The notes beneath the pieces are model-generated. The model saw only the letters and a list, made by a program, of their open reading frames with translations, did not search any database and was not told the DNA's origin. A stretch of DNA of 56,748 nucleotides from Desulfobacterales bacterium. Its GTDB lineage: Bacteria > Desulfobacterota > Desulfobacteria > Desulfobacterales > JALSRD01. The translations under genes and the position numbers were made by a program. The first letter of the stretch is position 1. The number at the start of each line of letters is the position of its first letter. Shown here piece after piece: positions 10,213-34,821 of this stretch. The stretch spans positions 1-56,748 of the forward strand of contig JALSRD010000056.1 in the NCBI GenBank assembly GCA_026984935.1, given 5' to 3'.

Positions 10213-10236
10213 CCGCCGATTGACACGGATAAAACA

Positions 10237-10266: not shown

Positions 10267-10298
10267 TTCCTGAAAACAAGCGAAAGGACGACGGAGAA

Positions 10299-10943
10299 AT
10301 GGATGCCCTGCTGGATCGGCTGTGGGCCTGGATTCTGGTGACCGTACAGCACATCGTCACAGGGATAGACGTTGTCGTTGCGCCCCTCAACCACCTGGGA
10401 CCGGCGGCGGCCATCACGCTCATCGCGCTGGCAACGGTGGCTTTTTCCAAGTTTTTCAGCCGCCATTACCGAACTTCGCGTTACGTGAAACTCGAAAAGG
10501 CTTTTCGCTACTGGTTCGACGTGCGCCAGGAAGCGCTGAAGTGCGCCGACGGCGAAAAGGCCAAGCTGCTGGCGAAAAACATCGACCAGGCCGAGCTCAA
10601 CCGGGTGTACTACGACTATTTTTTCGAAGGACTGCTGAACAGCCTGCTGACACGCTACCTGCCGCTGATATCCATGCTGGCCTATGTCAACAACGCGTAC
10701 CGGCCGGAGCGTCTCAAGGAACTGTTCGGCCGCAGCTTTATCTTCAGCATCCCATGGGATGCGGGCAAGGATCCCATCGCCCTGGGGGCCGCATTCTGGT
10801 TTGTGGCCTCGGTGGTACTGGTCTATCTGGCCTGGCCCGTGATGACGCGGATACGCCCCGCCCGAAAAAGCCGATCGACGGACAAAATTTCATACGCCGC
10901 CGCCCTGAAACTGCGCCGCGACATGCGATCGAACAGCATATAA
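10299..10943 (+). CDS. EMC3/TMCO1-like (DUF106) membrane protein of the Oxa1/YidC superfamily
   Basis: A 214-residue membrane protein. It has a helix near residues 34-54, a long charged helical hairpin (~58-115) ending in YYDYFFEGLLNSL, a second membrane helix (~118-138) and a third (~160-185). This TM / coiled hairpin / TM-TM pattern is that of DUF106 and EMC3 insertase-like proteins; the match is by architecture, not by a decisive motif. The ATG at 10299 is preceded by GGAG, very close. Family proteins help insert membrane proteins, so here it could assist the neighbouring exporter or sensor. I am only moderately sure of the family. Confidence 0.6.
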   Translation: MDALLDRLWAWILVTVQHIVTGIDVVVAPLNHLGPAAAITLIALATVAFSKFFSRHYRTSRYVKLEKAFRYWFDVRQEALKCADGEKAKLLAKNIDQAELNRVYYDYFFEGLLNSLLTRYLPLISMLAYVNNAYRPERLKELFGRSFIFSIPWDAGKDPIALGAAFWFVASVVLVYLAWPVMTRIRPARKSRSTDKISYAAALKLRRDMRSNSI

Positions 10944-11193
10944 CCTGCCGAAGATACCGGACATAGCCGGGCACAGACTGAAAAACCTCTTTGCACCCAC
11001 TGGACCATCTGCCGGGCGGCCGTTTTTCCCCGCACCGGCACCCCCTCTTTGAAACGGATCCAACGCGCCCTGCACTGCGCTGAAAAAAATGGCGGCCGGC
11101 ACCCGCGGACACCCCATTGACAGCCTTTTCGGAGTGTGCTTCAATTCCGGGGAAGTTTGACCCTACAACGACTCAATCCGGACTAGCGAGCCG

Positions 11194-11574
11194 ATGAAAA
11201 TTATTCTTGCCTACAGTGTTGCGCTGATTTTATCCCTGATCAACGGCAAGCTGGTGGCCGGGACCATCAGCGGCATCATTCTATCGCCTTTCGCCAGGCC
11301 GCTGGCTCATCTGAAAAGCATTGAGCGTTACGGGATCCCCTTTCTGCAGGGAATCGCCATGGGAGGTGTGGCGGTTTTCACCGCCCAGTGGGTACTGGCA
11401 TGGTTCGGTTTTCCCATCGCCTGGCTGACGATCGGCCTGCTGCTCATCGGATTTGTCGTCATTTGCAGCTATCTTTCAAAAAACGCCGCCGAAAGGCATT
11501 TTCACATTTCCGCCGGTATCGGCGAGGTGCTGGGCATCTGTCTTGCCGGCAGCTACTTTCTGCATCTTGTCTGA
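11194..11574 (+). CDS. small hydrophobic membrane protein, unknown function
   Basis: A 126-residue protein with four likely membrane helices (about 1-22, 48-70, 76-94 and 105-124) and few charged residues except in two loops (HLKSIERYG, SKNAAERHFH). I do not recognise a family. It follows the EMC3-like gene after 250 bp with no identifiable feature, and is 47 bp before another small membrane protein and the kinase gene. It is probably part of the same sigma-54-controlled cluster. Confidence 0.65.
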   Translation: MKIILAYSVALILSLINGKLVAGTISGIILSPFARPLAHLKSIERYGIPFLQGIAMGGVAVFTAQWVLAWFGFPIAWLTIGLLLIGFVVICSYLSKNAAERHFHISAGIGEVLGICLAGSYFLHLV

Positions 11575-11621
11575 AAATTGAAAGCCTCCGGCGTGTTCAT
11601 CACAGCGCCGCTTCTCACCAG

Positions 11622-12143
11622 ATGATGAAGTTTTGCCGCATATACCAACGGGCCTGTAAAACCGCTTCCCTACGCCTGTTTTGCGTTGCGGCGGTCCTTG
11701 GGTGGCAGCTCCTGAACCCTTCTGCGGCCGCGGCCACCCAGGGGCACGGCGGTATCGAGGGCGTCTATGTACATCAGATGGCCCACCTGCTGTTTCTTCT
11801 GTCCATGGTTATTCTGATTTTCCGCCTGCGCAGAAATGGGCTGACCGGGCAGAAAGGCTGGCGCCTGATTCAGTATGCGGCCCTGTTTTTTATCCTCTGG
11901 AATATTGACGCCATGGCCGTACACCTGCTGGACGACCAGTTCAAAGTGATCCAGGCCCGCACCATGGGCCCCTGGATGATGCGCATCACCTCTCTGCCGC
12001 CTTCGACCGGTCTGCAGATGTTCTACTATGTCGCAAGGCTGGACCATTTTCTCTGCGTGCCGGCCATGTTCTTTTTATACACGGGATTGAAACAGCTGCT
12101 GCAGGCAGCGGGCAGCAACCCGCCGGGACCGCCGAACCCATGA
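11622..12143 (+). CDS. membrane protein with His-containing helices, unknown function, translationally coupled to the kinase
   Basis: A 173-residue protein starting MMKFCRIY, with an N-terminal signal-like helix (~14-36) ending in a small-residue cleavage-like stretch (SAAAA). Three more hydrophobic helices lie at about 52-70, 84-102 and 140-160. His residues occur at or near helix ends (VHQMAHLL, AVHLL, LDHFLC), which could be heme ligands, but this is speculation. The stop overlaps the start of the kinase gene by four bases (ATGA), so the two are translationally coupled. This suggests it is an accessory sensor or partner for the kinase. Confidence 0.65.
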   Translation: MMKFCRIYQRACKTASLRLFCVAAVLGWQLLNPSAAAATQGHGGIEGVYVHQMAHLLFLLSMVILIFRLRRNGLTGQKGWRLIQYAALFFILWNIDAMAVHLLDDQFKVIQARTMGPWMMRITSLPPSTGLQMFYYVARLDHFLCVPAMFFLYTGLKQLLQAAGSNPPGPPNP

Positions 12144-13735
12144 CACTGCCCGCTTTTCCCATCCGGTTCGTCGACCTGATCGGCGCCGTGCTGATGATCG
12201 TTTTTTCCCTGCTGAGCCTGTTCTTTGTTTTCCGGCTGCGCCAGCGGGACCGCAAAAATATCGTCTGGACCTACCTGTTGTGGGTTTGCATGTCACTGGT
12301 CATTTTCTCCGTTTCGCGCTCGGCCGGACACATTCTCAAACAGGTCCTCATTTTTTCGGGGCGCACGCAGCTGTGGGACCCCATTCGACCCGTCAGCGGT
12401 GCCATCAATACGGTCATGTTCATGGTGGTGGCCTCGGTCACGATTTTTTTCGGCCGCATCTGGCGCATTTACCAGGCGATATTGAAAGACCGCCAGGCCC
12501 TGCAAGTCGCCCACGAAGAGCTCTCCTATCTCAACCAGAACCTCGAAAGGCTGGTGGCACAGCGCACCGAGGCGCTGGCGTTCTCGGAGTACAAGTACCG
12601 GCGCATCTTCGAAGTATCCAAGGACATGATTCTGGTGGCCACCGATGACGGCCGCATCGTGGACTTAAACCCGGTGGGATACGAAATGCTCGGCTGCCCG
12701 CAGGGTGATGAATCGCTGGTAAATCACCGCCGTCTGCAGGATTTTTTGGCGGACGAAAACGTGTGGCCCAAAATCCGCACGGCCATCGCTTCCGACGGTT
12801 TCATCGCCAACGTTGAAATCGAAATGAAGCGCATGGACGGCAGCCGCATGATGTCGCTGGTCAGCGGGAGCATGGATGAGGGGCCCGCCGAAGGCGCACA
12901 CACGATCCACTTCCTGGTCAAAGACATCGAACAGCGCAAGTCCATGGAACAGCAAATGGCCCAGGCCGACAAACTGGCATCCATCGGCCAGCTGGCCGCC
13001 GGCATCGCCCACGAAATCAACAACCCGCTGGGCATCATTCTGGGGTACGCCCAACTGCTGCAGCGCAACGAAAAGCCGGACAGCGAACGCTTCGCGGACC
13101 TGAAAACCATTGAAAAACACGTGCGCAACTGCAAGCTGATCGTCGAAGACCTGCTCAATTTCGCCCGCAGCTCGGATCCCAAGAATGTGTCAATGGATAT
13201 CCACACGGCCATGGACGATGCCTTAAACTTCATCCGCCATCATGCCGACCTGGGCGGCATCGAAGTGGTCCGGCAGTATGCGGCGGGGCTCCCGCTGCTG
13301 AAACTCGACGAAAAGAAAATCAAACAGGTCCTGATCAACCTGATCATGAATGCCAAAGACGCCGTGGGTACCTCCGGCACCATCACGCTCACCACAGACT
13401 GGGACACTGCCAAACGGCAGGTGCGCATCCAGGTGGCAGACAGCGGATACGGTATCGAGCCCCGACACCTGTCACGCATTTTCGACCCTTTTTTCACCAC
13501 CAAGCCCGCCGGCAATGCCACCGGCCTGGGGCTGTCGGTCAGCTATGCCATCGTCAAGAATCACGGCGGCTCTATTGCCGTCAACAGCCGGCCGGGCCAG
13601 GGCGCCTGCTTTACCATTCTGCTGCCGGACCGCCCCAGGGGTGCGGTCCCAACGAAAGTGCACCTGCATGTCACCGATGAAAAAGGTCCCCTAGTCCCCG
13701 GTACAGGACCCTACCCGGCGGAGGTTGAACGATAA
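12140..13735 (+). CDS. membrane-bound PAS sensor histidine kinase
   Basis: A 531-residue kinase. Three N-terminal membrane helices lie near 9-32, 41-60 and 85-106, followed by a coiled coil (~112-146), one PAS domain (~150-270), a HisKA domain and a HATPase domain (~385-495). The phospho-acceptor is His291 in AGIAHEINNPLG. ATP-binding boxes are visible as NLIMNAKDA, DSGYGI and GLGLSVSYAI. It is of the NtrB/AtoS type that controls sigma-54 activators, and its cognate regulator starts 18 bp downstream. A Pro-rich tail of ~35 residues extends beyond the ATPase domain. What it senses is unknown; the coupled membrane gene and the exporter upstream hint at an anion or respiratory signal. Confidence 0.93.
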   Translation: MTLPAFPIRFVDLIGAVLMIVFSLLSLFFVFRLRQRDRKNIVWTYLLWVCMSLVIFSVSRSAGHILKQVLIFSGRTQLWDPIRPVSGAINTVMFMVVASVTIFFGRIWRIYQAILKDRQALQVAHEELSYLNQNLERLVAQRTEALAFSEYKYRRIFEVSKDMILVATDDGRIVDLNPVGYEMLGCPQGDESLVNHRRLQDFLADENVWPKIRTAIASDGFIANVEIEMKRMDGSRMMSLVSGSMDEGPAEGAHTIHFLVKDIEQRKSMEQQMAQADKLASIGQLAAGIAHEINNPLGIILGYAQLLQRNEKPDSERFADLKTIEKHVRNCKLIVEDLLNFARSSDPKNVSMDIHTAMDDALNFIRHHADLGGIEVVRQYAAGLPLLKLDEKKIKQVLINLIMNAKDAVGTSGTITLTTDWDTAKRQVRIQVADSGYGIEPRHLSRIFDPFFTTKPAGNATGLGLSVSYAIVKNHGGSIAVNSRPGQGACFTILLPDRPRGAVPTKVHLHVTDEKGPLVPGTGPYPAEVER

Positions 13736-13752
13736 ATCATGGGAAACGCTTC

Positions 13753-15150
13753 ATGGCTGATAAAATTCTGATTATCGACGACGAACAGGATATGCTGCAG
13801 CTTTTAAAGCGCAGCCTGGAGCCGGATCTGAACTGCCGGGTGGAGACGGCCGCATCCGCTGAAGCCGCGTTGAAGATGCTCTCGGTGCAGCCCTACGACC
13901 TGATCCTGGCGGACATCAAAATGCCGGGCATGGACGGTCTGGAGCTGCTGGAGCTCATCAAGCGCGAACATGCGGATTTGACCGTGGTCATGATGACCGC
14001 CTACGGCCGCATCGAAATGGCGGTGGAAGCCATGAAGCGCGGCGCCTACGATTTCATCACCAAGCCTTTTGACCACGATGCCCTGCTGCTGCGGCTGGAA
14101 AAGGCGCTGGAGCGCAGCAAGCTGCTCAAGGAAAACATCAAGTACCAGCGGGAATTTCAGAACCAGCATGTATTCCAGAAGCTGGTTGGCAAAAGCGCCG
14201 CCATGCAGCGTGTCTACGAAGCCATCCAGATGGTGGCCAAGACCGACCTGACCGTTCTGATCACCGGCGAATCGGGTACCGGTAAGGATCTCACGGCCCG
14301 CGCCATTCATGCCATGAGCCAGCGCAGCAAAAATGCATTTGTGGCCGTCAACTGCCCCTCAGTGCCCGAACAAATTTTGGAAAGTGAACTCTTCGGCTAC
14401 CGCAAAGGGGCTTTTACGCATGCCACGCAAAACAAAATCGGCCTGTTTCAGGAAGCCCAGCACGGCACCATTTTCTTAGACGAAATCGGTGACATCAGCC
14501 CGACCATCCAGACCAAGCTGCTGCGGGTACTGCAGGAAAAGGAGATCAAACCGCTGGGCGATCCCAAGTCCATTGAAGTGGATGTACGGATCATCGCCTC
14601 GACCAACCAGAAACTGAAAGAAAAGATCAAAAAGGCCGAATTCCGTGAAGATTTTTTCTATCGCATCAACGTGCTGCCCATCCGACTGCCGGCCCTGCGC
14701 GAGCACCGCGAGGACATCCCGCTGATTGCCAACCACCTGACCAAGATGCACTGCGCCAAACTCAACAAACCCCCGAAGCGCATATCCACCGAACTGATGG
14801 AAATCTTCATGCAGCGCCGCTGGGAGGGCAACGTTCGCGAAATGGAAAACGTCGTGATGCGCGGGATTCTCTTTTCAACGGGCGACGAGATCCGGCCTTC
14901 GGATGTCGGCCTGAAAAAGAGCTCCATGCCCGAGTGCCTGGTTGAAAATGCCGTGCAGGAGCTGCCCTACAAAGAGGCCAAAGAAAAGACCCTGCAGCTG
15001 TTCAACTCCCGCTATATCGGGCGCCTGCTGACGCTTTCGAAGGGCAACGTTTCACAGGCTGCCAGGCAGTGCGGCCTGGAACGTCAGGCCCTGCAGCAGA
15101 TCATGCGCCGCTACGGCGTCAACGCGGCAGGATACCGCAAGCAGTCCTGA
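13753..15150 (+). CDS. NtrC-family sigma-54-dependent response regulator
   Basis: A 465-residue regulator with receiver domain (Asp54 in LILADIKMPG), AAA+ domain with Walker A GESGTGKD at 172-179, and a Fis-type helix-turn-helix at the C-terminus (GNVSQAARQCGLERQALQQ). The sigma-54 contact loop reads GAFTHA instead of the usual GAFTGA; the FT core is kept, so activity is plausible but altered coupling is possible. It should activate RpoN promoters, the obvious candidate being 7894-7909 ahead of its own operon. It pairs with the kinase just upstream. Confidence 0.94.
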   Translation: MADKILIIDDEQDMLQLLKRSLEPDLNCRVETAASAEAALKMLSVQPYDLILADIKMPGMDGLELLELIKREHADLTVVMMTAYGRIEMAVEAMKRGAYDFITKPFDHDALLLRLEKALERSKLLKENIKYQREFQNQHVFQKLVGKSAAMQRVYEAIQMVAKTDLTVLITGESGTGKDLTARAIHAMSQRSKNAFVAVNCPSVPEQILESELFGYRKGAFTHATQNKIGLFQEAQHGTIFLDEIGDISPTIQTKLLRVLQEKEIKPLGDPKSIEVDVRIIASTNQKLKEKIKKAEFREDFFYRINVLPIRLPALREHREDIPLIANHLTKMHCAKLNKPPKRISTELMEIFMQRRWEGNVREMENVVMRGILFSTGDEIRPSDVGLKKSSMPECLVENAVQELPYKEAKEKTLQLFNSRYIGRLLTLSKGNVSQAARQCGLERQALQQIMRRYGVNAAGYRKQS

Positions 15151-22621: not shown

Positions 22622-24709
22622 ATGGCCCAAAATCGCATTACCCGACACCCCATCCTGGATATTGCACCGGGTGAAGAGGTCGCCTTCAGCTGGAACGGAC
22701 GGCCGCTTACCGGTTTTGCCGGTGAAATGATCGCTTCAGCGCTTATCGCCAACGGCATTGCGGTTTTCGGACATCATCCCAAAGACCACAGCCCCCAGGG
22801 CATCTTCTGCGCCAACGGCCAGTGCGCCCAGTGCATGGTCATGGCAGACGGCCTGCCGGTCAAATCCTGCATGACGCCCTTGGCGGCGGGCATGCGCCTC
22901 GAGAGCCTCGACGGGCTGCCCAAACTGCCGGCTGCTGACCGCGTGGTGCAGACCGCCGACATCCCGGTCATCGACATCCCGGTGCTGATCATCGGTGCCG
23001 GGCCGGCGGGCCTGACCGCCGCCATCGAGTTGGGCAGGCAAGGTGTACACACCCTGCTCATCGACGACAAGGACCGCCTGGGCGGCAAACTGGTCCTGCA
23101 GACCCACAAGTTCTTCGGTTCCGTCCAAGACTCGTACGCCGGCAGGCGCGGATTCGAAATCGCCGCCCTGCTGGCGCACGAAGTCCGCCGGCATTCCAGC
23201 ATCGAGATCTGGCTCGACAGCACGGCCGTGGGCGTCTTTGCGGACAAGATCGTGGGAATCGTCAAAGATGGCGGCTACCGCCGCGTGCGCCCTCAAAAAC
23301 TGCTGGTGGCCACCGGTGCCCGTGAAAAGATGCTCTCTTTTGACGGCAATACCCTGCCCGGGGTTTACGGCGCCGGCGCTTTTCAGACCCTGGTCAACCG
23401 CGACCGCGTTAAATCCGCCTCCCGCGTGCTCATCGTGGGCGGCGGCAACGTGGGCCTCATCGCCGGTTATCACGCCATCCAGGCCGGCATCGCGGTGGTG
23501 GCCCTGATCGAGGCCCTGCCGCAAATCGGCGGCTACCGGGTGCACGCCGACAAGCTGCGTCGGCTGGGTGTTCCCATTTATACCGGCCACACCATCTTGG
23601 CCGCCCATGGAAAAGACCGGGTGGCATCCGCCACCATAGCCCGGCTGGACAAGAACTGGCACGCCATCGCCGGCACCGAAAAGACCTGGGCGGTGGACAC
23701 GGTGCTGGTGGCCGTGGGCCTGGCTGAAGTCAACGAGTTCATATTCAAGGCCCGGCAATTCGGCATGCATGTTTTTGCGGCCGGAGACGCCCGGGAAATC
23801 GCCGAAGCCTCGGCGGCCATGTTCACCGGCCGCATCGCGGGGCTCAAAATCGCCAAAGCGCTGGGCATGCACGCAAAAGACATTCCGCAGGAATGGATTG
23901 ACAAGGCACAGGTGCTGAAATCCAGGCCCGGCAGGACGCAAGCGGCCGCGCCGCCAGCGGCCGAAGAAGGGGTTTTCCCCGTCTTCCACTGCACCCAGGA
24001 AGTGCCCTGCAACCCCTGCACTTCGGTCTGTCCCATCGGCGCCATCCACACCGAAGGCGACACCATCACCGGCATTCCCTACCGCGAAGAGGACAAAGAC
24101 TGCAGCGGCTGCCTGAACTGCGTGGCCATCTGTCCGGGCCTGGCCATCACCCTGGTGGATTACCGCAGGGACCCCGAGCATCCCACAGTAACCCTGCCAT
24201 GGGAAATCCGGCGCGAAGCGCTGGAAGTGGGCCGGTCCATCGCCGTCACAGACCCCGCGGGCACGGCTCTGGGCCATTTCCCGGTGCTGCGGGTGCGGAC
24301 CAAAAAAGACTATCCGCACACCCTGCTGGTGCAGGTGCGCATGCCGAAGGAGCTGGCCAAAGCCGCCGCCGGCATCCGGATGCCGGCGACGGCGGCCGAC
24401 GCGCTGGAAATCTACCAGCGCGAAGCGGCCGCAAACACAGCCGTGGTCTGCCGCTGCGAGCGCATCACGGCCGGTGAAATCCGGGATGCCATCCGCAGCG
24501 GGGTCCGCGACATGAACCAGCTCAAAGCCCTGACCCGGGCCGGCATGGGCGCGTGCGGCTCCAAAACCTGCCGGCCATTGATCTGGCGTATTTTCCAGGA
24601 AGAAGGCGTCGACCTGGGCAGTGTCACCGACCGCGTCGACCGACCGCTTTTCGTGGAGGTGCCCATGGGATACTTTGCCGGCATCCGGAAAGGCGGCCGT
24701 CATGCATAG
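22622..24709 (+). CDS. multi-cofactor FAD/NAD oxidoreductase, HcnA-HcnB-like fusion with ferredoxin and BFD domains
   Basis: A 695-residue protein in this order: a [2Fe-2S] domain (C63, C68, C71, C83); an FAD Rossmann fold (GAGPAGLTAA near 125) with a nested second dinucleotide fold (VGGGNVGLIAG near 280); a two-cluster [4Fe-4S] ferredoxin (CNPCTSVCP and CSGCLNCVAICP, ~460-510); and a C-terminal BFD-like [2Fe-2S] domain (CRCERIT ... GACGSKTC, ~615-650). It looks like HcnA and HcnB / OoxA-type subunits fused and extended by a ferredoxin. Such enzymes take electrons from a DAO-type partner that oxidises an amine, imino acid or hydroxyproline-like substrate. The partner gene overlaps by 8 bp. 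GGAGGAG precedes the ATG. Confidence 0.9.
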   Translation: MAQNRITRHPILDIAPGEEVAFSWNGRPLTGFAGEMIASALIANGIAVFGHHPKDHSPQGIFCANGQCAQCMVMADGLPVKSCMTPLAAGMRLESLDGLPKLPAADRVVQTADIPVIDIPVLIIGAGPAGLTAAIELGRQGVHTLLIDDKDRLGGKLVLQTHKFFGSVQDSYAGRRGFEIAALLAHEVRRHSSIEIWLDSTAVGVFADKIVGIVKDGGYRRVRPQKLLVATGAREKMLSFDGNTLPGVYGAGAFQTLVNRDRVKSASRVLIVGGGNVGLIAGYHAIQAGIAVVALIEALPQIGGYRVHADKLRRLGVPIYTGHTILAAHGKDRVASATIARLDKNWHAIAGTEKTWAVDTVLVAVGLAEVNEFIFKARQFGMHVFAAGDAREIAEASAAMFTGRIAGLKIAKALGMHAKDIPQEWIDKAQVLKSRPGRTQAAAPPAAEEGVFPVFHCTQEVPCNPCTSVCPIGAIHTEGDTITGIPYREEDKDCSGCLNCVAICPGLAITLVDYRRDPEHPTVTLPWEIRREALEVGRSIAVTDPAGTALGHFPVLRVRTKKDYPHTLLVQVRMPKELAKAAAGIRMPATAADALEIYQREAAANTAVVCRCERITAGEIRDAIRSGVRDMNQLKALTRAGMGACGSKTCRPLIWRIFQEEGVDLGSVTDRVDRPLFVEVPMGYFAGIRKGGRHA

Positions 24710-25856
24710 TTACGACGTCATCATCGTGGGTGCCGGATCAACAGGTGTTCCCACGGCCCTGGCCTGCAGCCGGGAAAAACTGAAAACACTGGTCATCGAC
24801 AAGCGCCCCTCTCCCGGGCAGGGGGAAAACAAGCATGCCATCGGCGGCATCCGGGCCACGCATTCCGATCCGGCTAAAATCATCGCCTGCCACCGCTCGC
24901 TGGAAATCTTCTCCACCTGGAAGGAGCGCTATGAGGAGGACATCGAATGGGAAAAAGGCGGGTACGTTTTTCCGGTCTTTCGCCGGCAGGAGGAAAAGAT
25001 CCTGAAATCTTTTCTGCCCGTTCAGAAAAAATTCGGCCTGAATATCGATTTCGTGGATGCCCGCACCATCGCCAAAACGGTCCCGGGCATCAACCGCCAC
25101 GGGCTTCTGGGCGGCACCCTGTCGCCGGACGACGGATCGGCCTCGCCGCTTTTGGCCATCAATGCCTTTTTCCGGCGTGCCCGCGAGCTGGGCGCCGATT
25201 TCCGGTTCAACACCGAAGTCCACACGCTCCTTAAAAGCAACGGCCGGGTTTGCGGCGTCAAAACCACGGACGGCGATTTCGCATCAGGCGTGGTGGTAGA
25301 CGCCGCCGGCGCCAGTGCCGCAGATCTGACGGCTGCCACGGGCTGCCGCCTGCCGGTGATTCCGGAATCCCACGAGGCCGGCATCACCGAGCCGGTGCAG
25401 ATGTTCTGCCCCGCCATGGTGGTCGACCTGCGGCCGGCACCGGGCTCGCGCAACTACTACTTCTACCAGAACCGGCACGGGCAGGTGGTCTTCTGCATCA
25501 CCCCGGATCCACCGCTGACGGGCAGCGACTACCGCGAAACTTCCATTTTCCTGCCCCAGGTCTGCCGCCGCATGGTGGACCTGGTGCCACGGCTGCAGAA
25601 CCTGCGCGTGCGCCGGGTCTGGCGGGGCCTGTACCCTATGACCAGCGACGGCTCCCCGCTCATGGGATGGGACCGGGATGTCCCCGGCCTTTTGCACGTG
25701 GCCGGCATGTGCGGCCAGGGATTCATGCTCGGTCCGGGCCTGGGTGAAGTCGTTGCGCGCATGGTCACGCGCAGCACCACCGAACAGGACCGGATCATCC
25801 TGGAGCGCTTTTCGCCTTACCGCGACCTGAGCTGCCGGATGGAAGCCTTGAAATAA
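24702..25856 (+). CDS. DAO-family FAD-dependent dehydrogenase (HcnC/sarcosine-oxidase-beta-like)
   Basis: A 384-residue flavoprotein with the N-terminal FAD site VGAGSTGVPTALAC and the DAO C-terminal signature (GLYPMTSDGSPLMG, GMCGQGFMLGPG). It should be the substrate-oxidising subunit, passing electrons to the overlapping partner gene's product. I set the start at the ATG at 24702 because the FAD motif begins six residues later; the overlap of 8 bp with the upstream gene implies translational coupling. Likely substrates of the class are D-amino acids, sarcosine/opines or hydroxyproline; the sequence does not decide. In an anaerobe it would act as a dehydrogenase, not an oxidase. Confidence 0.9.
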   Translation: MHSYDVIIVGAGSTGVPTALACSREKLKTLVIDKRPSPGQGENKHAIGGIRATHSDPAKIIACHRSLEIFSTWKERYEEDIEWEKGGYVFPVFRRQEEKILKSFLPVQKKFGLNIDFVDARTIAKTVPGINRHGLLGGTLSPDDGSASPLLAINAFFRRARELGADFRFNTEVHTLLKSNGRVCGVKTTDGDFASGVVVDAAGASAADLTAATGCRLPVIPESHEAGITEPVQMFCPAMVVDLRPAPGSRNYYFYQNRHGQVVFCITPDPPLTGSDYRETSIFLPQVCRRMVDLVPRLQNLRVRRVWRGLYPMTSDGSPLMGWDRDVPGLLHVAGMCGQGFMLGPGLGEVVARMVTRSTTEQDRIILERFSPYRDLSCRMEALK

Positions 25857-26003
25857 AGCGGCCACCGATTGCCTGCAACCCGGCAGTCCGGCACCTCCTT
25901 ACGTCAAAAGCGCTTCGAACTGCTTCAAATTTTCCCGCCGCGTCCCTGCAAAAAATCATTCGCCGGCTGCACATCGATACGAATATCCACCGCAAATAGC
26001 GGC

Positions 26004-26034
26004 TGGCCGCCTAAGCGCCGCTGAAAGGCGGCCA
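26004..26034. terminator. candidate bidirectional hairpin between convergent genes
   Basis: A perfect 9-bp stem (TGGCCGCCT with AGGCGGCCA) and a 13-nt loop directly after the stop of the response-regulator gene and downstream of the DAO gene. No T-tract on either side, so termination may depend on another factor. Confidence 0.45.
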
Positions 26035-26739
26035 TCAGCATTGAATGGATTTTAGCACATCCGGCGGTGCGCTGTTTCCGGAATGGGCTTCAATGGTGAT
26101 CAGCCCCTTTTGCAGCGCATAACGTGTCAGGCCGGCGATATCGTGGATGTCCAGTTTGCGCATCAGGGCGTTGCGGTGCGTCTTTACGGTCTTGGGGCTG
26201 ATACAGGCGATTTCGGCAATTTCGTTGGTGGTTCTGCCTTCGGCAATCATCTGCAGCATCTGTTTTTCCCGGGCCGTCAGCGAATCATAGGCATCGAACG
26301 GACTTTTCTGTTGCAACAGGTGGCAGTAATCGTCAATCACGTACTTTGCCACCGGCGGACTGATATAAATATGTCCATGCAGAACGCTATCGATGCTCTC
26401 CAGCAGTTCATCGACCGCCGCATCTTTCAGTAAATACCCCATGGCTCCGGCGACAAAGGCGTTCAAGACATACTGCTTTTCCCGGTACATGGACAAAATA
26501 ATGATCTGGGTGTGCTCCAGCTGTTTTTTAATTTCTTCGGTGGCCAGAATCCCGTTGATGTGAGGCATCAGAATGTCCATGATGACGATTTCGGGCGTCA
26601 ATTGCAATGATTTGTCGATGGCTTCTCTGCCGTTTTCGGCCTCGCCGACGATCTGGTAGTCTTGCTTCTGGGAGATGATGGCTTTAAACCCTTGGCGTAC
26701 CAGGTTGTGATCGTCGGCAAGCAGGATGCGCGCATGCAT
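26035..26739 (-). CDS. NarL/FixJ-family response regulator
   Basis: A 234-residue regulator with a receiver domain (probable phospho-acceptor Asp55 in IVIMDILMPH) and a LuxR-type helix-turn-helix (~155-215; LTAREKQMLQMIAEGRTTNE, SPKTVKTHRNALMRKLDI). The kinase gene just upstream (gap 87 bp) is of the NarX/HisKA_3 type that normally phosphorylates this class. Candidate targets are the YeiH-type transporter operon, whose upstream region carries three phased repeats. It may also regulate unlinked respiratory genes. Confidence 0.94.
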   Translation of the reverse strand: MHARILLADDHNLVRQGFKAIISQKQDYQIVGEAENGREAIDKSLQLTPEIVIMDILMPHINGILATEEIKKQLEHTQIIILSMYREKQYVLNAFVAGAMGYLLKDAAVDELLESIDSVLHGHIYISPPVAKYVIDDYCHLLQQKSPFDAYDSLTAREKQMLQMIAEGRTTNEIAEIACISPKTVKTHRNALMRKLDIHDIAGLTRYALQKGLITIEAHSGNSAPPDVLKSIQC

Positions 26740-26826
26740 ATCTGTCAGACTCCTGAAAAGAAAAATTCATATCGGCGGTGCGCATACTGCGCTGTATAGC
26801 TTTCTGTTTACGGAAAAAAGCCAATG

Positions 26827-29304
26827 TCAGCCCGTGGCGGCATTTTGCAGATACGGATCAACAGCGCCCGCGCTTAGTTTTTTCAACGGCAGCGACAATT
26901 TCACGGTCGTACCGCCCCCGGGACGGCTGGAAATCCTGACCGACCCACCCAGATAATCCATTCTCTCCCGGATGATGTGCAGGCCCATGTTGCCGTTGTA
27001 TTCCAGGGTGTCAAAACGGCCCAGATCGAAGCCGCATCCGTTGTCCCGGATTTCAATATCCAGCCCGGATGCAGCGGCCTGCAATGCAACGGAAACGTGG
27101 GTCGCCTGCGCGTGTTTGGCACAGTTGAGCAGTGCTTCCTGAACCAGCCGGAAGAGCAGGGCCTCCACCGGCAACGGCAGCCGCTGAACGCCGCCGTTCT
27201 CTTTCAGCGAACTTGCGATGTGAAATTTTTCGGAAAAGTTTTCCAGGTACCACTTGACCGCCGGCACCAGGCCCAGGTTGTCCAGGATCGTCGGATACAT
27301 TTCCGATGTCAAATCCCGGGTGATCGAAATCACCTTGTCCAGCAGCTCCTGGACATTGCCTAAATCCCTGTGGAGTTTATCCTGCCGCGCCTGCATCTTC
27401 TTGGCCAGCATGCCGATGTTGATCTTGATGGCGGCCAGGTCCTGCCCGAGCTGGTCATGCAGGACGCCGGCAAATTTCCTTCTCGTATTTTCCTCGACCT
27501 GCGAAAGCCGGATGGTCAAATCGCGCAGGGCCCGATTCCGCTTTTTAAGCTCAAAATTCGTTCTGATAATTTTTTCTTCCAATTTTTTTCTCAACGTCGT
27601 GTCACGGATGATGCTCATCACGTACGATTTGTTGTTCATCGAGAAGGAACTTGAAATCAGCTCCACAAAAATCCTGTCCTCCCCCTGAGTGACCATTTCC
27701 AGCGTGCAGGCCGCCGACTGACTCTTTTTCAGGCATTTTTCGGCACAGGATCCGTCACGCGGGACAAGAAATTTTGAAAAGGGCCGTCCCACGATCTCCC
27801 GCCGTTCGGTACCCGAAAGCTTCAGCCAGCGGGGATTGGCATCGATGATTTGCAGCGTTTCCGAATCAAGAAAAACGATGGCATCATTGGCATTTTCAAA
27901 CAATTCCCTGTAGCGCAATTCCGATTCCCGCAGGCGGGACACCTTTTCATCGATTAAAGACTCCAGCTCCATTGCGTAGCGGTTCAATTCGTCATGCAGC
28001 ATTTTCATTTCGGATATGTCGATAAAATTGACCACCAGCGAAAACGGCGCGGCCTGCTCAGCGGCAATCACGGCACTATTGACCAATACATGCACCGCCT
28101 GGCCCGCTGTGGATGTAAAGTGATGCTCAAACATGTGCAGGTGCTTCGCATTCATCGACTGAATCTCCACGGGAATGGGCAACTCGACCTCACCCAGTTT
28201 TCTGCCGATAACCCGCTCAGAAGAAACCCCGGTAATCTGCGCGGCCGCAGAATTCCAGAACGTAATCCGCTGCGTACCATCGATGATCAAAAAACCAATG
28301 GGCGCCGTGGCAATGACGGTTTCCAGAAACTTCCGATTTTGATTCAGCTCCCGGGTACGCTGTTTCACCAGCGATTCCAGACCCTCCGAATAGCTTTTCA
28401 ACTCCTGCTGGGTTTCCCGCAGGTGCCCCATGAGCTCGTAAAAAGAAAGCGTGACTTCTCCGATTTCATCCCGGGAATCCATCTTGACCGGGTCGTTCAG
28501 GCTTCTTTCGCCATGCACCACACTTTTACAAAAACTGCTCAGATTTTTTAAGGGGCGATGGACGAACTTTTCAAAAAAAACGCCCACCAGTACGAACAAA
28601 AACAGGAGGGAGAGAATACCCGCCCCCAGGATAAAGAGAAAGGTCCGGTGAATCTGCGCCAGTGCCCGATCCACCGGTATGGCCACGACATCCAGGCCGG
28701 CAACCCGCCCGACTTTCCGGTAAAAACCGGCCTGGTTGCCGTACCGGCTCAACAAATCGGACGGTGCATCCCCGGGCTTTCCGTGACAGCGCAGGCAGCT
28801 TTTCTCCGTGTAAACCGGCTGCAGAGCGACAAACCAGTTGCGGTCATCCCGTTTAATAATGCCCTGCCACTCCTTGCTGCTGCGGGAGCGGTTGTAAGCC
28901 GCGATCATTTTTCTCTCGAAGCGGTCCGCACGATTGGACGGATTGCGGGGGTTCAGGGATGCCCGTTTGTACACCATCTGCTTGAACACGGAGGCCACTT
29001 CGCCCATCATATTGCGGCTCACAAAAGATGTGGACATGGCCTCGACAATAAAAACGTCACGCGGCAGTATGGCGTACATTTTGGGGCGCAGGATGTCTTT
29101 GACGTACTTGCGGGCAGCCTGCACTTCAGCCATCAGAAGGCTTGTCTTCTCGTACGATTTGTTCATCAATTCGCGTTTGAACTGGAAATAGACGAGCGAT
29201 GAAATCAGCAGCACAAAGACGACAAAGACAGAGGCGGTTGCGAAGAAAAATTTCTGCTGCAGCGACAGGTCGCGCCCCGATGGGGGAAAATGAAAATGCC
29301 ACAT
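26827..29304 (-). CDS. NarX-like sensor kinase with a c-heme-binding periplasmic domain
   Basis: An 825-residue membrane kinase. Helix 1 (~18-40) and helix 2 (~224-248) flank a periplasmic DUF3365/Tll0287-like domain containing the heme c motif CLRCH (C170, C173, H174). After the membrane come a HAMP domain (~248-300), a coiled coil, two PAS domains (~335-440, ~470-585), a HisKA_3 dimerisation domain with His616 in VLHDQLGQDL, and a HATPase domain (~700-800). The covalent heme makes it a redox or gas sensor, for example of oxygen, NO or midpoint potential (inference from the family). The cognate NarL-type regulator lies downstream. Upstream on the same strand are the YeiH-type transporter and a Cys-rich protein; the 252 bp between (29305-29556) hold nothing I recognise. 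Confidence 0.93.
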   Translation of the reverse strand: MWHFHFPPSGRDLSLQQKFFFATASVFVVFVLLISSLVYFQFKRELMNKSYEKTSLLMAEVQAARKYVKDILRPKMYAILPRDVFIVEAMSTSFVSRNMMGEVASVFKQMVYKRASLNPRNPSNRADRFERKMIAAYNRSRSSKEWQGIIKRDDRNWFVALQPVYTEKSCLRCHGKPGDAPSDLLSRYGNQAGFYRKVGRVAGLDVVAIPVDRALAQIHRTFLFILGAGILSLLFLFVLVGVFFEKFVHRPLKNLSSFCKSVVHGERSLNDPVKMDSRDEIGEVTLSFYELMGHLRETQQELKSYSEGLESLVKQRTRELNQNRKFLETVIATAPIGFLIIDGTQRITFWNSAAAQITGVSSERVIGRKLGEVELPIPVEIQSMNAKHLHMFEHHFTSTAGQAVHVLVNSAVIAAEQAAPFSLVVNFIDISEMKMLHDELNRYAMELESLIDEKVSRLRESELRYRELFENANDAIVFLDSETLQIIDANPRWLKLSGTERREIVGRPFSKFLVPRDGSCAEKCLKKSQSAACTLEMVTQGEDRIFVELISSSFSMNNKSYVMSIIRDTTLRKKLEEKIIRTNFELKKRNRALRDLTIRLSQVEENTRRKFAGVLHDQLGQDLAAIKINIGMLAKKMQARQDKLHRDLGNVQELLDKVISITRDLTSEMYPTILDNLGLVPAVKWYLENFSEKFHIASSLKENGGVQRLPLPVEALLFRLVQEALLNCAKHAQATHVSVALQAAASGLDIEIRDNGCGFDLGRFDTLEYNGNMGLHIIRERMDYLGGSVRISSRPGGGTTVKLSLPLKKLSAGAVDPYLQNAATG

Positions 29305-29556
29305 GATCCACTAAACCAAGCCCGCCACGGTGCGGCCGGCTTCCCGGTTGCATCCAAAATATCGAAGAGCCATACCGCCATCGGTATAGCTGCATGATCT
29401 TTTTGCCCGTATGCGGCCACTAACGGCCGTGGCCTCTCCCGCATGGGGAGCACGCGCCCGATCCTTTGCCAAACAAGACCCCAGGCCCGTTAAAACGGAG
29501 GCATTGCACTATTTCGGGAACCTCGCGGTGCGTGGCTTGTGACCGCCCCATGGCGG

Positions 29557-29781
29557 TTATGCGGCCTGACGCTTCATGGAACGGTGATTTGCGGTTCGGT
29601 CCTGAAACGCTTCACATGTCCCGCGTGGGAACAGATAAACATCATGCAGGCTGCAGAGTCCTGCATCACCTCTAACACATCCCCAGGCTGAACTCAAGGC
29701 GTTGAGCCCGGCGTAACTGTCTTCAAGAAATTGCGACCCATTGTTAAAAAAAGAGCATTGACTGCAGGTTTTCTCTTTCAT
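29557..29781 (-). CDS. small Cys-rich protein, unknown function
   Basis: A 74-residue protein starting MKEKTCSQCSFF, with AGAGG upstream. Its five Cys residues (C6, C9, C35, C43, C56) and one His (CSLHD) could bind zinc or an iron-sulfur cluster. I do not recognise the family. It lies 132 bp downstream of the YeiH-type transporter gene on the same strand and upstream of the heme-kinase, so it may share their regulation. Codon pattern and the C-x2-C motif argue for a real gene; a longer frame upstream to 29910 lacks a ribosome site. Confidence 0.65.
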   Translation of the reverse strand: MKEKTCSQCSFFNNGSQFLEDSYAGLNALSSAWGCVRGDAGLCSLHDVYLFPRGTCEAFQDRTANHRSMKRQAA

Positions 29782-29913
29782 CTGCTTACCTCTGCCGGAT
29801 TGGAATCCAACGGTTTGCATCCCCTTTTCCCGTACCCGGGGACAGCTCCAGCGGAAAAATCCGGGCGGGTGGCGGTCCCCCCCCGGATTTTCCATACGGG
29901 ACGCTGTCAAAGG

Positions 29914-31302
29914 TTATTTGACGACATTCAAGGCGGTCGACCAGTAATGGCCGAAAATGAGCACCGAGAATATGAACCCCAGAATCACGTTGACCACAAC
30001 TCCCATGGTAAAAGATTTCAGCGCCGGTCCTCCGGCAGCCGTCAGTTCACGGAATCGCGTCGTCAGGCCGATGCTCAAAAAGCAGAAGATAAAAGCCCAC
30101 GTGCGCATGGCCTTGATGGGGTTCACCAGGGCCGGCTTCACCACCTTGAGATACTGCTGCATGGGAATCGCATGCACCACGACGGTGATGATGATGGATG
30201 CCAGAAAGAAACCCAGCACGAACTTCGGGAACCGCCACCAGATTTCCATGGCATTGGGTTTCTGGCCCAGGTTGTCGGCTTTTTCCCATTTGGTCACCGA
30301 AATGATGGCAAACACGAAGGCCCAGATGCCGATCCAGATATCCCGGCCGATAACCTTCATCAGGGTAAAGGCGCGCACCGCGATTTCCTCCATGCCCACC
30401 ATGAGGCCGTAAGCCTGGGCCGCGGCAAACCCGGCGGCGTCGGCGAACTCCGAAGTCCCCACCCAGGCACCCACGATACCGGCATGCAGGTTCAGCAATT
30501 TTCCCATGAACGGCAGGAAGAAGATCATCACGATGGCCCAGCAGATCACCAGGGTGATGGCCACCACCGGAAATTCCTTTTTCGCCCGCACCGCACCGGC
30601 CACGGCAATGGTGCCCGAAACCCCGCATACCGAAGCGCCGGCGCCCAGACAGGCTGCCAGGCGCGGATCCAGTTTGAAAATCCGCGTGGCGGCAAAATAC
30701 ACCACCAGGCAGGTCGTCACGGCGATCACCGTCGCCTGGATCATGGCCACCGGTCCGGCGTAGATGATCAGTGTAAACGGCAGGGTGGCACCCAGCAGGA
30801 CGATGCCGGTCTTGATGTAATACTCGACCCTGAAGCCGGTATCCATCCATTTCGGCAGCCGGAAAAAATTGGCGATGATCAAACCGATGACCAGGGCCAC
30901 CAGCGGCGGTTCCAGATTGTAATGGTGTGCCTGATCCCAGGCACCGATCGCAAAGATGATGATGGAAATAACATAGACAAAGACAAACGACGGCAGGAAT
31001 TCCGAAGTCTTAAACCCCATGATCTTGGTCGAGATGCTGAAAACCGCCGCCCAGAAGACAAACTGTAGGATATACCAGTGAACATGTGCTCCGAGATCGT
31101 GGAACAACTGGCCGAAATTCGACCACCGGGCCGGTGTCACGGCCAGCGGCTTTAAGCTGCTGCCGCTGAAATATAATGCCATGGCCGAAAAAATAATTAA
31201 CAGCGACAGCCAGATGGCCCACCAGTCCTCCTTTTTGTAAATTTCGCGCCACCCAAAATTTTCAACTTTCGGTTTAACGTATTCCTCTTGCTTTTCTGCC
31301 AT
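29914..31302 (-). CDS. YeiH-family putative sulfate/anion exporter (UPF0324)
   Basis: A 462-residue integral membrane protein. The core (about 120-460) has the YeiH features: LVIGLIIANFFRLP, the glycine-rich CLGAGASVCGVSG near residue 215, and about nine or ten membrane helices. The first ~110 residues add a charged N-terminus (DWWAIWLSLL) and two further helices, making it longer than the typical ~340 residues. The family is annotated as a putative sulfate exporter; a role in moving sulfate, sulfite or a related anion is plausible in a sulfate reducer but unproven. Three 22-bp-phased repeats lie 130-185 bp upstream. Confidence 0.88.
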   Translation of the reverse strand: MAEKQEEYVKPKVENFGWREIYKKEDWWAIWLSLLIIFSAMALYFSGSSLKPLAVTPARWSNFGQLFHDLGAHVHWYILQFVFWAAVFSISTKIMGFKTSEFLPSFVFVYVISIIIFAIGAWDQAHHYNLEPPLVALVIGLIIANFFRLPKWMDTGFRVEYYIKTGIVLLGATLPFTLIIYAGPVAMIQATVIAVTTCLVVYFAATRIFKLDPRLAACLGAGASVCGVSGTIAVAGAVRAKKEFPVVAITLVICWAIVMIFFLPFMGKLLNLHAGIVGAWVGTSEFADAAGFAAAQAYGLMVGMEEIAVRAFTLMKVIGRDIWIGIWAFVFAIISVTKWEKADNLGQKPNAMEIWWRFPKFVLGFFLASIIITVVVHAIPMQQYLKVVKPALVNPIKAMRTWAFIFCFLSIGLTTRFRELTAAGGPALKSFTMGVVVNVILGFIFSVLIFGHYWSTALNVVK

Positions 31303-31430
31303 TTTCCCCTCCCTTTGCTCTCAATTCACACCTCCGGCGACAATTGCCCTGCGTTTTTCGCCTCCAGCCGTACCAAAACAGATAGCTGATTATGAGTAGC
31401 ATGGACAAATTTTCAAGAACATCGGCGCAT

Positions 31431-31486
31431 GGGCGTATTTGTATCCACCCAAGGGTGTATTTTCGCCGGAATTTGGGAGTATTACC
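31431..31486 (-). promoter_or_regulatory. three phased direct repeats upstream of the YeiH-type gene
   Basis: GGGCGTATT, GGGTGTATT and GGGAGTATT begin at 31431, 31453 and 31475, exactly 22 bp apart (about two helical turns). On the strand of the transporter gene they read AATACNCCC. The even phasing suggests a cooperative regulator site for the 31302 promoter. The divergent PilZ gene starts 120 bp away and could also respond. Confidence 0.55.
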
Positions 31487-31605
31487 GTTTTGCCCATGCC
31501 CGTTCGTCCCCAGGATGGCAACGGTGTGGATTTTCAGTTGCACTCCCTTGCAAATACCGCTATAATTATAATTGGTTTCAATAATCCAGTGGGGAGACAG
31601 GAATT

Positions 31606-31962
31606 TTGAACGCGTACCGCAGGAAAGTGATCGATGTTCAGGATGAGCGCCGGAAACACCCGCGGCTGGACTTTGACTGTCCGGTGGTCATTCCCGGTGT
31701 TGAAGGACCCAAGAAGGTAACCGACCTGAGTTGCGGCGGGGTATTTATCGAGCTGCAGTCCTCAACGGCGCTGCGAATCGGCCAGATGCTCAACCTGGTC
31801 TTCAAGCTCCCGACACGCAAGGATTCCCTGCGCGTCAAGGCCCAGGTGAAAAACCTGCAGAAAAGGGGCATTGGCTGCCAGTTCGTCGATCCCAGCGCCA
31901 CCGTCCTGCAAGCCATCCGCGATTACGTGGACACGTTCAAAGATACGCTGCTGCTGCGATAG
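31606..31962 (+). CDS. PilZ-domain protein (c-di-GMP binding)
   Basis: A 118-residue single PilZ domain. The c-di-GMP-binding motifs are visible: RRKHPR (R-x3-R) near residue 15 and DLSCGG (D-x-S-x2-G) near residue 40. The start is probably TTG at 31606 with AGGA upstream; no in-frame ATG precedes the RxxxR motif. As a stand-alone PilZ protein it likely links c-di-GMP level to motility, surface or secretion functions by binding a partner. It is divergent from the YeiH-type gene. Confidence 0.88.
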   Translation: MNAYRRKVIDVQDERRKHPRLDFDCPVVIPGVEGPKKVTDLSCGGVFIELQSSTALRIGQMLNLVFKLPTRKDSLRVKAQVKNLQKRGIGCQFVDPSATVLQAIRDYVDTFKDTLLLR

Positions 31963-32180
31963 CCCGAATTCCGCCGCTATCCGATGCCTCGCCTTCGCCA
32001 CTACCGACTCTGCCCCGGCGCCGGTTTCGCCCCCGGCCGCCATTCTGATTGAAAGCACCGCCGAGCGCCCTTGGTGAATCCAACCGCTGTCCGACGGCAA
32101 AACATCTGCCGGAATTTACCGAGAACAACCTTGCAGATACCGAGAGGCCTGCCGGATTGGCGGGTGGCGGCAGGTAAAAA

Positions 32181-32215
32181 ACCCCTTTTCCAGGTGCAAC
32201 GGACGCAAAAGGGGT
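32181..32215 (-). terminator. Rho-independent terminator on the minus strand
   Basis: A 9-bp stem (ACCCCTTTT / AAAAGGGGT) with a 17-nt loop, followed on the minus strand by a run of T (32175-32180). It would end a transcript coming from the amtB side, implying a ~290-nt 3' region after amtB or an unannotated small RNA. Confidence 0.65.
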
Positions 32216-32245
32216 GAGGGAAGAGTTTATTACCTGAATCTTGCA

Positions 32246-32369
32246 CAGACAATTTTGAAAACTTATAAAATTGTAATGTTATCTCATGGTTGTCTATGGA
32301 TGAAGCGCGATAATTTTTAGCGTCATTGGTATGTTCGGAAACCTTCCATTTTGACTTCAAAATTGTCTG
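32246..32369. repeat. 14-bp perfect inverted repeat bracketing an AT-rich stretch
   Basis: CAGACAATTTTGAA at 32246-32259 is exactly repeated in inverse orientation as TTCAAAATTGTCTG at 32356-32369. The ~96 bp between are AT-rich and non-coding. It could be the ends of a tiny MITE-like element or the stem of a structured RNA. Confidence 0.6.
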
Positions 32370-32408
32370 CCCTGCGGGAGCGCCGATTTTACCGCCTCTA
32401 CTGTATTG

Positions 32409-32447
32409 CAGGGCATTTGCGGTAGTATACTACAGCTGCATGCCCTG
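32409..32447. repeat. nested palindrome downstream of amtB
   Basis: Outer arms CAGGGCAT / ATGCCCTG (8 bp) enclose the perfect 12-bp palindrome GTAGTATACTAC (32422-32433). Located 58 bp after the amtB stop. A cruciform, an RNA hairpin or a protein site are all possible. Confidence 0.6.
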
Positions 32448-32504
32448 CGCCTTGTATAGGCGGCAAACGCAACGCTTGCAAAATTCAGGTATTATATGTG
32501 ATGT

Positions 32505-33914
32505 TCAGATCGTTGACGCCGGGCCGGGATCTGCCGTCATAGCCACCGCCACCGGTGTGGGGGATACTCCGGCGGTTCCGGTGACCATCCCGCCGTAGGA
32601 GGAAACCTCGAAGTCGGGATAGGCATTGCCGCCGTGTTCGGTGATATCCAGGCCTTCCAGCTCTTCTTCGGGAGAAACCCTTAGGCCGATGGTCTTGTCG
32701 ATGAATTTGAAAAGCACGAAGGCCGTTGGAAAAACCCACAGGAAACAGGCCGCGATTCCCAGGATCTGGACACCGATCAATTTCGCCGATGTTCCCCCGA
32801 TATTGAAAATGCCGGCCGCCAGTGTGCCCCACGCACCGTTTACTCCGTGAACCGATACGGCACCCACGGGATCGTCGACTTTGATCCGGTCGAAAAACAG
32901 GACGGACAGCACCACCAAAACGCCGGCGATGGCACCGATGATAACGGCGCTAAACGGTGTAACAGTCGCGCAGGGACTGGTGATGGCCACCAGGCCGGCC
33001 AGGGCGCCGTTCAGGCTCATCCCGATTTCCGGCTTGCCAAACTTGATCCAGGAGGTAAACATGGCCAGCACGCAGCCGGCAGCTGCCGCCAGGTTGGTGT
33101 TGACGAAAATCATGGCGGTGTCCTTGTTGGCCGCTGTGGTGGAGCCCGGGTTGAAGCCGAACCAGCCCAGCCAGAGGATGAACACGCCCAGAGCGGCAAG
33201 CGGCATGCTGTGACCGAGAATGGGACGAATGGCGCCGTCTTTACCGTACTTGCCCAGACGCGGGCCCAGCACGATGGCGCCGGCAAGCGCTGCCCAGCCC
33301 CCCACCGAGTGCACCACGGTGGAGCCGGCAAAATCGATGAACCCCAGGTTTTCCAGCCAGCCGCTGCCCTTGTAAAGGCTGCCCCAAGCCCAGGAGCCGA
33401 ATATGGGGTAGATCAGCGCGCTGATCGCCACACTGTAGATGAGATATCCCGTAAATTTAGTGCGCTCGGCCATGGCGCCGGAGACGATGGTGGCGGCCGT
33501 GGCGGCAAACACCACCTGAAACATCCAGAACGCCAGCACCCAGGGGTCGCCGCCGGGCTGGAAGTCGCTCAAGAAGAATCCCGACGTGCCGAACCAGCCC
33601 GATGCAGAGACGCCGAACATCAGGCCGAAGCCCAGCGCCCAGAACGCCAGTGAGCCGAAAGCAAAGTCCATCAGGTTTTTCATCATGATGTTGATGGCAT
33701 TCTTGGCGCGCGTAAAGCCTGTTTCCACCAGGGCGAAACCGGCCTGCATAAAAAATACCAGGGCAGCGGCCACCAAGGTCCAGACGTAGTCCGCATGGGT
33801 TTGGACCAGGTCGATGGCCGCCTTGTTGGAAAGCGGTGTCGGCGGATTGTCACCGGCCCAGGCCGGGCTTGTGAAACATACGAACATTAACAGCAGGGGA
33901 AATAGCCTTTTCAT
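32505..33914 (-). CDS. amtB: ammonium transporter
   Basis: A 469-residue Amt/MEP transporter with a cleavable signal peptide (MKRLFPLLLMFVCFTSPAWA) and eleven expected membrane helices. Family marks include FFMQAGFALVETG near residue 55, DFAGSTVVHSVGG near 205, and HGVNGAWGTLA in the C-terminal half, which contains one of the pore His residues. It conducts ammonium/ammonia inward and is blocked by the P-II protein encoded 33 bp upstream. The ATG at 33914 has AAGGAGG 9 nt upstream; a longer frame (33938) has no site. The C-terminal tail is Ala/Thr/Pro-rich and lies beyond the usual GlnK-contact region (EELEGLDITEHG). Confidence 0.95.
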   Translation of the reverse strand: MKRLFPLLLMFVCFTSPAWAGDNPPTPLSNKAAIDLVQTHADYVWTLVAAALVFFMQAGFALVETGFTRAKNAINIMMKNLMDFAFGSLAFWALGFGLMFGVSASGWFGTSGFFLSDFQPGGDPWVLAFWMFQVVFAATAATIVSGAMAERTKFTGYLIYSVAISALIYPIFGSWAWGSLYKGSGWLENLGFIDFAGSTVVHSVGGWAALAGAIVLGPRLGKYGKDGAIRPILGHSMPLAALGVFILWLGWFGFNPGSTTAANKDTAMIFVNTNLAAAAGCVLAMFTSWIKFGKPEIGMSLNGALAGLVAITSPCATVTPFSAVIIGAIAGVLVVLSVLFFDRIKVDDPVGAVSVHGVNGAWGTLAAGIFNIGGTSAKLIGVQILGIAACFLWVFPTAFVLFKFIDKTIGLRVSPEEELEGLDITEHGGNAYPDFEVSSYGGMVTGTAGVSPTPVAVAMTADPGPASTI

Positions 33915-33946
33915 CACGAAATGCCTCCTTATGCGCAAAATGTTGC

Positions 33947-34363
<417 letters not shown>

Positions 34364-34821
34364 CTATAAACTCCATAACCGATTGTAAATAAAAACTATT
34401 ATAAAGCGCCACGAAAATCGCCAATACATGTTTAAAATTACATTATTGTATTTATATAACTTATATATAACATTTATGTGTCTTTAATGATGAAAATAGA
34501 CTTTTTTGTCGGATTTGGGGTCTGAAATGGGCGCCGACTGCATGAAAAGTTTGCGCCCAATGCCTTTTGAGCCTCCTGAAAACCTCCGGCAGCCGATCGC
34601 CACCGCAGCCAAAACAGGCGTTTCAGGGAAGCGTCATTGTCCATGCACAACGGACAATGGTAGATGAGAGCGGCGGATGTCAGCCGGCGGGCGTTGGATA
34701 AAAAACGTTTACGCCCGGTGGGGATTGGTGTATCCTGCGTTAAATGCCTGCGGTGCATGCTTGCAACACGCGAAACGCCTGAGAGAACAGACATCCAAGG
34801 ATCCCGGGAGAGCCCAGGCCC

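Follow-up and report, generated by a model that had tools for sequence, protein, structure and literature searches.

Three repeats at exact 22-bp spacing upstream of a YeiH-type transporter gene form a probably regulatory array and a candidate operator for a neighboring heme-kinase/NarL-type pair

In the divergent gap upstream of a YeiH-type transporter gene, we observed three copies of the word GGGNGTATT starting at 31431, 31453 and 31475, with start-to-start spacings of 22 and 22 bp, just as the first-pass annotation of this DNA had described. The window, by which we mean the whole 56,748-nucleotide stretch that was analyzed, places the array inside a 303-bp gap between the YeiH-type gene (29914-31302, minus strand) and the divergent gene of a PilZ-domain protein (31606-31962, plus strand). 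We consider the array to be real and probably regulatory. From the sequence, we give about an even chance to the more specific reading that it is the operator of a NarL-type response regulator encoded in the same locus (26035-26739, minus strand), positioned upstream of the yeiH promoter. If true, this reading would give a poorly characterized transporter family linked to sulfite resistance a concrete promoter and regulator, and it would connect a class of heme sensors with a target gene that can be tested. By itself, the array is a bacterial control region of an ordinary type, and its regulatory context is moderately interesting.

On the plus strand, the three copies read GGGCGTATT (31431-31439, nearest to yeiH), GGGTGTATT (31453-31461, the middle copy) and GGGAGTATT (31475-31483, distal to yeiH). 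In the direction of yeiH the repeat unit is AATACNCCC, and the order toward the gene is AATACTCCC, AATACACCC and AATACGCCC, followed by TTGAAA, a 16-bp spacer and CATAAT. All three copies lie upstream of this last, promoter-like site (31416-31389, minus strand), a candidate sigma70 promoter of yeiH that matches at 10 of 12 positions. It is the one site called in a promoter scan of 31200-31750, where the mean in 50 shuffles was 0.5, so that the call is near chance level by itself. The array adjoins this candidate promoter: when the repeats are framed as 22-bp units starting with AATAC, a framing of our own choosing, the proximal unit ends 1 bp before the -35 box. A search of 25900-34800 against Rfam at gathering thresholds returned no matches.

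The array may instead, or in addition, serve the divergent PilZ gene. A second promoter-like sequence, TTGCAC-17 bp-TATAAT at 31538-31566 on the plus strand, precedes that gene and has the array about 55-107 bp upstream of it. We judge this alternative very unlikely, because the array is much nearer to the -35 box of yeiH, the candidate PilZ -35 box matches TTGACA at 3 of 6 positions, and the site was read by eye and is absent from the scan list. In addition, a PilZ homolog appears in none of the 25 non-own entries listed (E 1e-6).

We counted the array word as AATACNCCC/GGGNGTATT, one word on which the following counts rest and in place of which other motif descriptions could shift them. The window contains five copies on its two strands against a shuffle mean of 1.15, with 3 of 100 shuffles reaching five. 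The genome as scanned (3,888,041 bases in 112 contigs) contains 101 copies (49 + 52), compared with 36 of the reversed control word. An exact pair of these words at 22 bp is unique to the array genome-wide, with two forward matches, both within the array, none in reverse, and 0 and 0 for the control. The genome motif scan that the first-pass annotation had suggested as a check thus found the exact pair at the array alone in 3.9 Mb.

A test that presupposes no particular word, requiring three copies with at least 8 of 9 columns identical at an equal spacing of 10-60, found one place in the window. Such a triple was present in 4 of 300 dinucleotide-shuffled versions of the window, and at near-helical spacing in 2 of 300. 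When the 303-bp gap by itself was shuffled, none of 20000 trials yielded an equal-spaced triple. As a real-DNA control, we applied the same test to 790,609 bases comprising 80 yeiH-type loci and the window. This gave six equal-spaced triples. Setting aside the array itself and three short tandem repeats leaves two in approximately 734 kb outside the window. An equal-spaced triple somewhere in 56 kb is therefore not very rare (about 0.15 expected from this control), whereas one within this single divergent gap is rare, the gap having been picked after the fact. The array is thus improbable, though not to an extreme degree, and it is its placement in the divergent gap that makes it notable. That the array is merely three look-alike words fallen by chance into a short gap, without function, draws on the shuffle and real-DNA counts just given for larger stretches. 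We regard this reading as unlikely in view of the gap shuffles and of the position of the array in a divergent promoter gap, beside the sole promoter-like site called there.

The middle copy is paired with an inverted box, an arrangement that also counts against chance, since it follows the layout of NarL sites. This box, GGGTGGAT on the minus strand at 31443-31450 (ATCCACCC on the plus strand), matches the middle copy at 7 of 8 letters across a 2-bp gap. The pair reads ATCCACCC-AA-GGGTGTAT on the plus strand and ATACACCC-TT-GGGTGGAT on the yeiH strand, where 7 of 8 positions are complementary. When the repeats were held fixed and the other bases shuffled, 28 of 20000 trials produced an equally good partner at this gap and orientation, and 446 of 20000 produced one when any gap of 0-6, to either side, was allowed. 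A good inverted partner is confined to the middle copy. For the proximal copy the match is 5 of 8 with the 2-bp gap and 6 of 8 when the same box is used in a different layout, and for the distal copy no listed layout exceeds 4 of 8. The array heptamer resembles the NarL heptamer, TACYYMT, and the half-site sequence is not the NarL consensus.

Two published systems provide the closest comparisons. One study reports high-affinity binding of NarL homodimers to 7-2-7' inverted sites, the use of such sites by NarP as well, and binding of NarL monomers to heptamers in other arrangements (PMC2718512). In TACACCC-TT-GGGTGGA, as at these E. coli NarL/NarP sites, two inverted heptamers stand 2 bp apart; the array differs from them in that two of its three copies are without a good inverted half. 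The NarL homologue BvgA is described as placing dimers every 22 bp, with three at fha and the last abutting the -35 box (PMC7250471). The array shares with Bordetella fha the number of sites, the 22-bp spacing on the same helical face, the position of the last site at the -35 box and a candidate regulator of the NarL family. It differs in that BvgA occupies inverted half-sites as head-to-head dimers and has its strong site at the far upstream end (PMC7250471), whereas in our array the word recurs as a direct repeat, a clear inverted pair is seen at the middle copy alone, and the sites are predicted. The proposal in the first-pass annotation that the two-turn phasing reflects cooperative binding thus has a precedent in the published BvgA spacing, and for the present array it stands as a prediction.

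The transporter encoded by the gene facing the array is a 462-residue protein that scores 139.8 bits against Pfam PF03601, above the gathering score of 24.5, and 72.3 bits against TIGR00698, below the cut-off of 232.6. Because it reaches the first threshold and falls below the second, we refer to it as YeiH-type. By these scores the protein is related to TIGR00698 without belonging to the same subfamily, and YeiH proper would be an unproven label. Downstream of yeiH and on the same strand lie, in order, a small ORF (29557-29910), a sensor kinase (26827-29304) and the NarL-family regulator, which combines Response_reg and GerE domains (PF00072, PF00196). The kinase comprises a Tll0287-like heme domain, PAS, HisKA_3 and HATPase. 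Like the DUF3365/Tll0287 c-type-heme Cache sensors, it has both PF11845 (116.4 bits) and a CLRCH motif, at residues 170-174. The product of the small ORF contains Cys and matches nothing in Pfam or NCBIfam at E 0.001; its homologs, at 31-66% identity, occur in 22 of the 25 non-own entries listed and come from records titled as several phyla.

We propose that the heme-domain kinase would phosphorylate the NarL-type regulator, and that the phosphorylated regulator would then bind the three-repeat array upstream of the yeiH promoter. At the middle copy, one dimer may occupy the inverted 7-2-7 pair, with further dimers binding cooperatively at the neighboring copies, two helical turns away and on one face of the helix. 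The bound dimers would reach the -35 box and recruit RNA polymerase to yeiH. Recruitment would probably extend to the kinase and regulator genes behind yeiH, if these are co-transcribed with it, and would thereby produce autoregulation. Of the two possible signs of regulation, activation is the one that we prefer.

The array could instead be read as the operator of another direct-repeat regulator that binds about two turns apart and is encoded elsewhere in the genome, for instance one of the AraC/XylS type or a LysR-type protein like YeiE. AraC/XylS-type activators have 21-bp direct half-sites, and the conserved word of the array is asymmetric and directly repeated, with no good inverted partner at two of the three copies. 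Furthermore, in Salmonella, yeiH is required for sulfite resistance and is controlled by YeiE, a sulfite-responsive LysR-type protein (PMC12880088). Our locus is like the Salmonella one in that a yeiH-family gene is controlled, here by prediction, from a divergent intergenic region; it is unlike it in that the candidate regulator is a heme-domain two-component pair and not a LysR-type protein, and in that the transporter lies below the TIGR00698 cut-off. A regulator of either type is an improbable choice in our assessment. No AraC or LysR domain was found among the 27 window proteins scanned with Pfam, a scan that left out genes beyond approximately 45.7 kb and some others, such as 24621-25856, and a heme-sensor gene is present at 19 of the 80 yeiH-type loci, as described below.

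The first-pass annotation had named the heme-kinase/NarL pair as a candidate regulator of the array, and the arrangement of the locus lends this some support: the pair lies on the same strand downstream of yeiH, the order of genes recurs in a relative, and the array stands by a promoter-like site with a 2-bp-gap inverted partner at its middle copy. The comparison with related species that it had also suggested went against the array, as the repeats are not conserved; this fulfils one half of the refuting condition set in that annotation, which pairs a lack of conservation with a lack of binding by any regulator. We did not find the array in any of the 72 homologous upstream stretches tested, which come from L027, L028 and 70 other yeiH-type loci. 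These stretches are 600 bp long and end at the start of the tblastn match, not always at the start codon; the 8 of 80 loci with less than 600 bp upstream were left out. The array word occurs once in the 72 stretches against 0.62 expected, indicating no enrichment. This absence detracts from the assignment to the heme-kinase/NarL pair, as does the lack of a second array in the genome, and it also favors the view that the three words are a chance occurrence.

The relatives differ in how much they can say. In L027, yeiH, the kinase and the regulator are 85%, 58% and 79% identical to those of the window, and the order of yeiH, small ORF, heme kinase and NarL regulator is kept. The recognition-helix region of the regulator is, by eye, nearly unchanged there, so similar sites would be expected upstream of its yeiH; the array was not found in that stretch. 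Several TACCC/TACCT boxes do occur upstream of yeiH in L027, and we discounted them, as their spacing and sequence differ from those of the array. In L028, where yeiH is 79% identical, the array is likewise not found, and a single lone copy of the array word lies 487 bp upstream of yeiH. The closest relative by yeiH, L029, has 91% identity over residues 124-462 and a genome with orthologs of both kinase and regulator; neither the initial 124 residues of yeiH nor the DNA ahead of them was found in that genome. L027 is thus the only relative in which the regulator is present and the DNA upstream of yeiH can be read, and the array sites are absent there. With this one informative relative, the lack of conservation weakens the predicted operator and does not settle the case. 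Informative relatives are few because the kinase passed E 1e-120 in only one of 389 class genomes, its own, with the best two candidates scored per listed genome.

No second array was found in the own genome, either as an exact 22-bp pair or as a pair with up to two mismatches. The relaxed pair occurs at 14 places in six genomes, compared with 9 for the reversed control, and at three places in the genome that holds the array (G000), two of them the array itself. A search of the six genomes for the inverted-pair pattern matched the array itself and two places in one other genome (G392), which we discarded as coding, since they lie inside open frames of 321 and 229 amino acids; the stretches around them contain no GGGNGTATT word. 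A supposed further ortholog in G246 was treated as the same record as L028, since the contigs of the two agree in number and length (C250, 15328). In G006, which has a 62% homolog, the array word occurs once on a 4465-base contig, inside the yeiH coding region. G001, the nearest relative and a member of the same genus, matches yeiH only partially, at 39%, and none of the 15 candidates scored gave a DNA match in it to 31300-34400.

A broader survey lends further support to the neighboring pair as regulator. Among 80 yeiH-type loci taken from the genome scan, 19 have a heme-sensor domain in the DNA around yeiH, with CxxCH in all 19. A sigma54 activator domain lies alongside the heme sensor in 17 of these (L030-L033, L049, L051-L054, L059, L063, L067, L072, L073, L083, L084 and L091), the remaining two being L027 and L029, whereas it occurs at 6 of the 61 loci without a heme sensor. 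At a threshold of 10 of 12 positions or better, which was chosen after the scores were known, a -24/-12 sigma54 site lies within 300 bp upstream of yeiH at 10 of the 17 loci versus 3 of 53 others (Fisher p ~1e-5); the 53 include some with short upstream DNA, and L027 and L028 were left out. With loci restricted to those having at least 4.4 kb of upstream DNA, the site is found at 3 of 38 others (p ~1e-4). No strong site was found upstream of yeiH in the window, L027 or L028, where the best scores are 6, 7 and 6 of 12, respectively.

This contrast was conceived after sigma54 activators had been noticed in L030 and L052, and it depends on how relatedness is treated. Counted by cluster at 75% identity, the site is found in 3 of 3 versus 0 of 11 (p ~0.003), the 14 clusters being coarse, few and a mixture of both kinds of loci. 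Within clusters, loci with and without the sensor and activator score 3 of 4 versus 0 of 1, 4 of 9 versus 3 of 12, and 3 of 4 versus 0 of 17, so the link is weaker inside clusters, as the one large cluster with 4 of 9 versus 3 of 12 illustrates. Because sigma54 sites are found at 10 of 17 versus 3 of 53 loci and at none of the window, L027 and L028, promoter class appears to tend to follow regulator class. The pattern of sensor, sigma54 activator and -24/-12 sites among the 80 loci suggests that the neighboring two-component system probably controls yeiH.

From this pattern one may go a step further, to a generalization that we regard as possible and hold with less than even confidence. The c-heme Cache sensor two-component system would be a widespread, dedicated controller of a YeiH-type exporter clade, its output arm swapped by evolution between a sigma54 activator with -24/-12 promoters, as in most sensor loci, and, as here, a NarL-type regulator whose triple operator is phased at 22 bp. 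A heme signal, possibly responsive to NO or redox state, would thereby govern sulfite/sulfate export in sulfur-metabolizing bacteria. A heme Cache domain fused to signaling parts is reported in a preprint to bind NO tightly (PMC12889525); the word 'yeih' has no occurrences in its main text, and a link to a sulfur exporter is absent from the text examined. We found no report joining this heme-sensor family to YeiH in the open-licence literature searched, where for some searches the best 8-10 matches of longer lists were considered.

Several further features of the window and its relatives were recorded. At 8512-15150 on the plus strand, the window holds a second sulfite-exporter-type gene (TauE, PF01925), behind which lie two ORFs without a Pfam match and then genes for a HisKA kinase and a sigma54 response regulator. 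L028 carries a short 14-bp tandem repeat (CATTGATCATTTGG-like) at 4555-4610, approximately 440 bp upstream of yeiH, and another 14-bp tandem of the ATTCACCAT type near 2044. Between the PilZ gene and amtB, at 32232-32490, lies a 259-bp dispersed repeat with the ends ACCTGAATCTTGCA and TGCAAAATTCAGGT. It has at least 14 other near full-length copies in the genome at 94-98% identity, plus one partial copy, among the 15 of 157 initial candidates that were scored. A 3-bp direct repeat was read by eye at the flanks in 7 of 8 aligned two-flank copies, that of the window included, after 2 of 10 aligned copies without a flank were left out, and by these features the repeat appears to be a MITE-like element.
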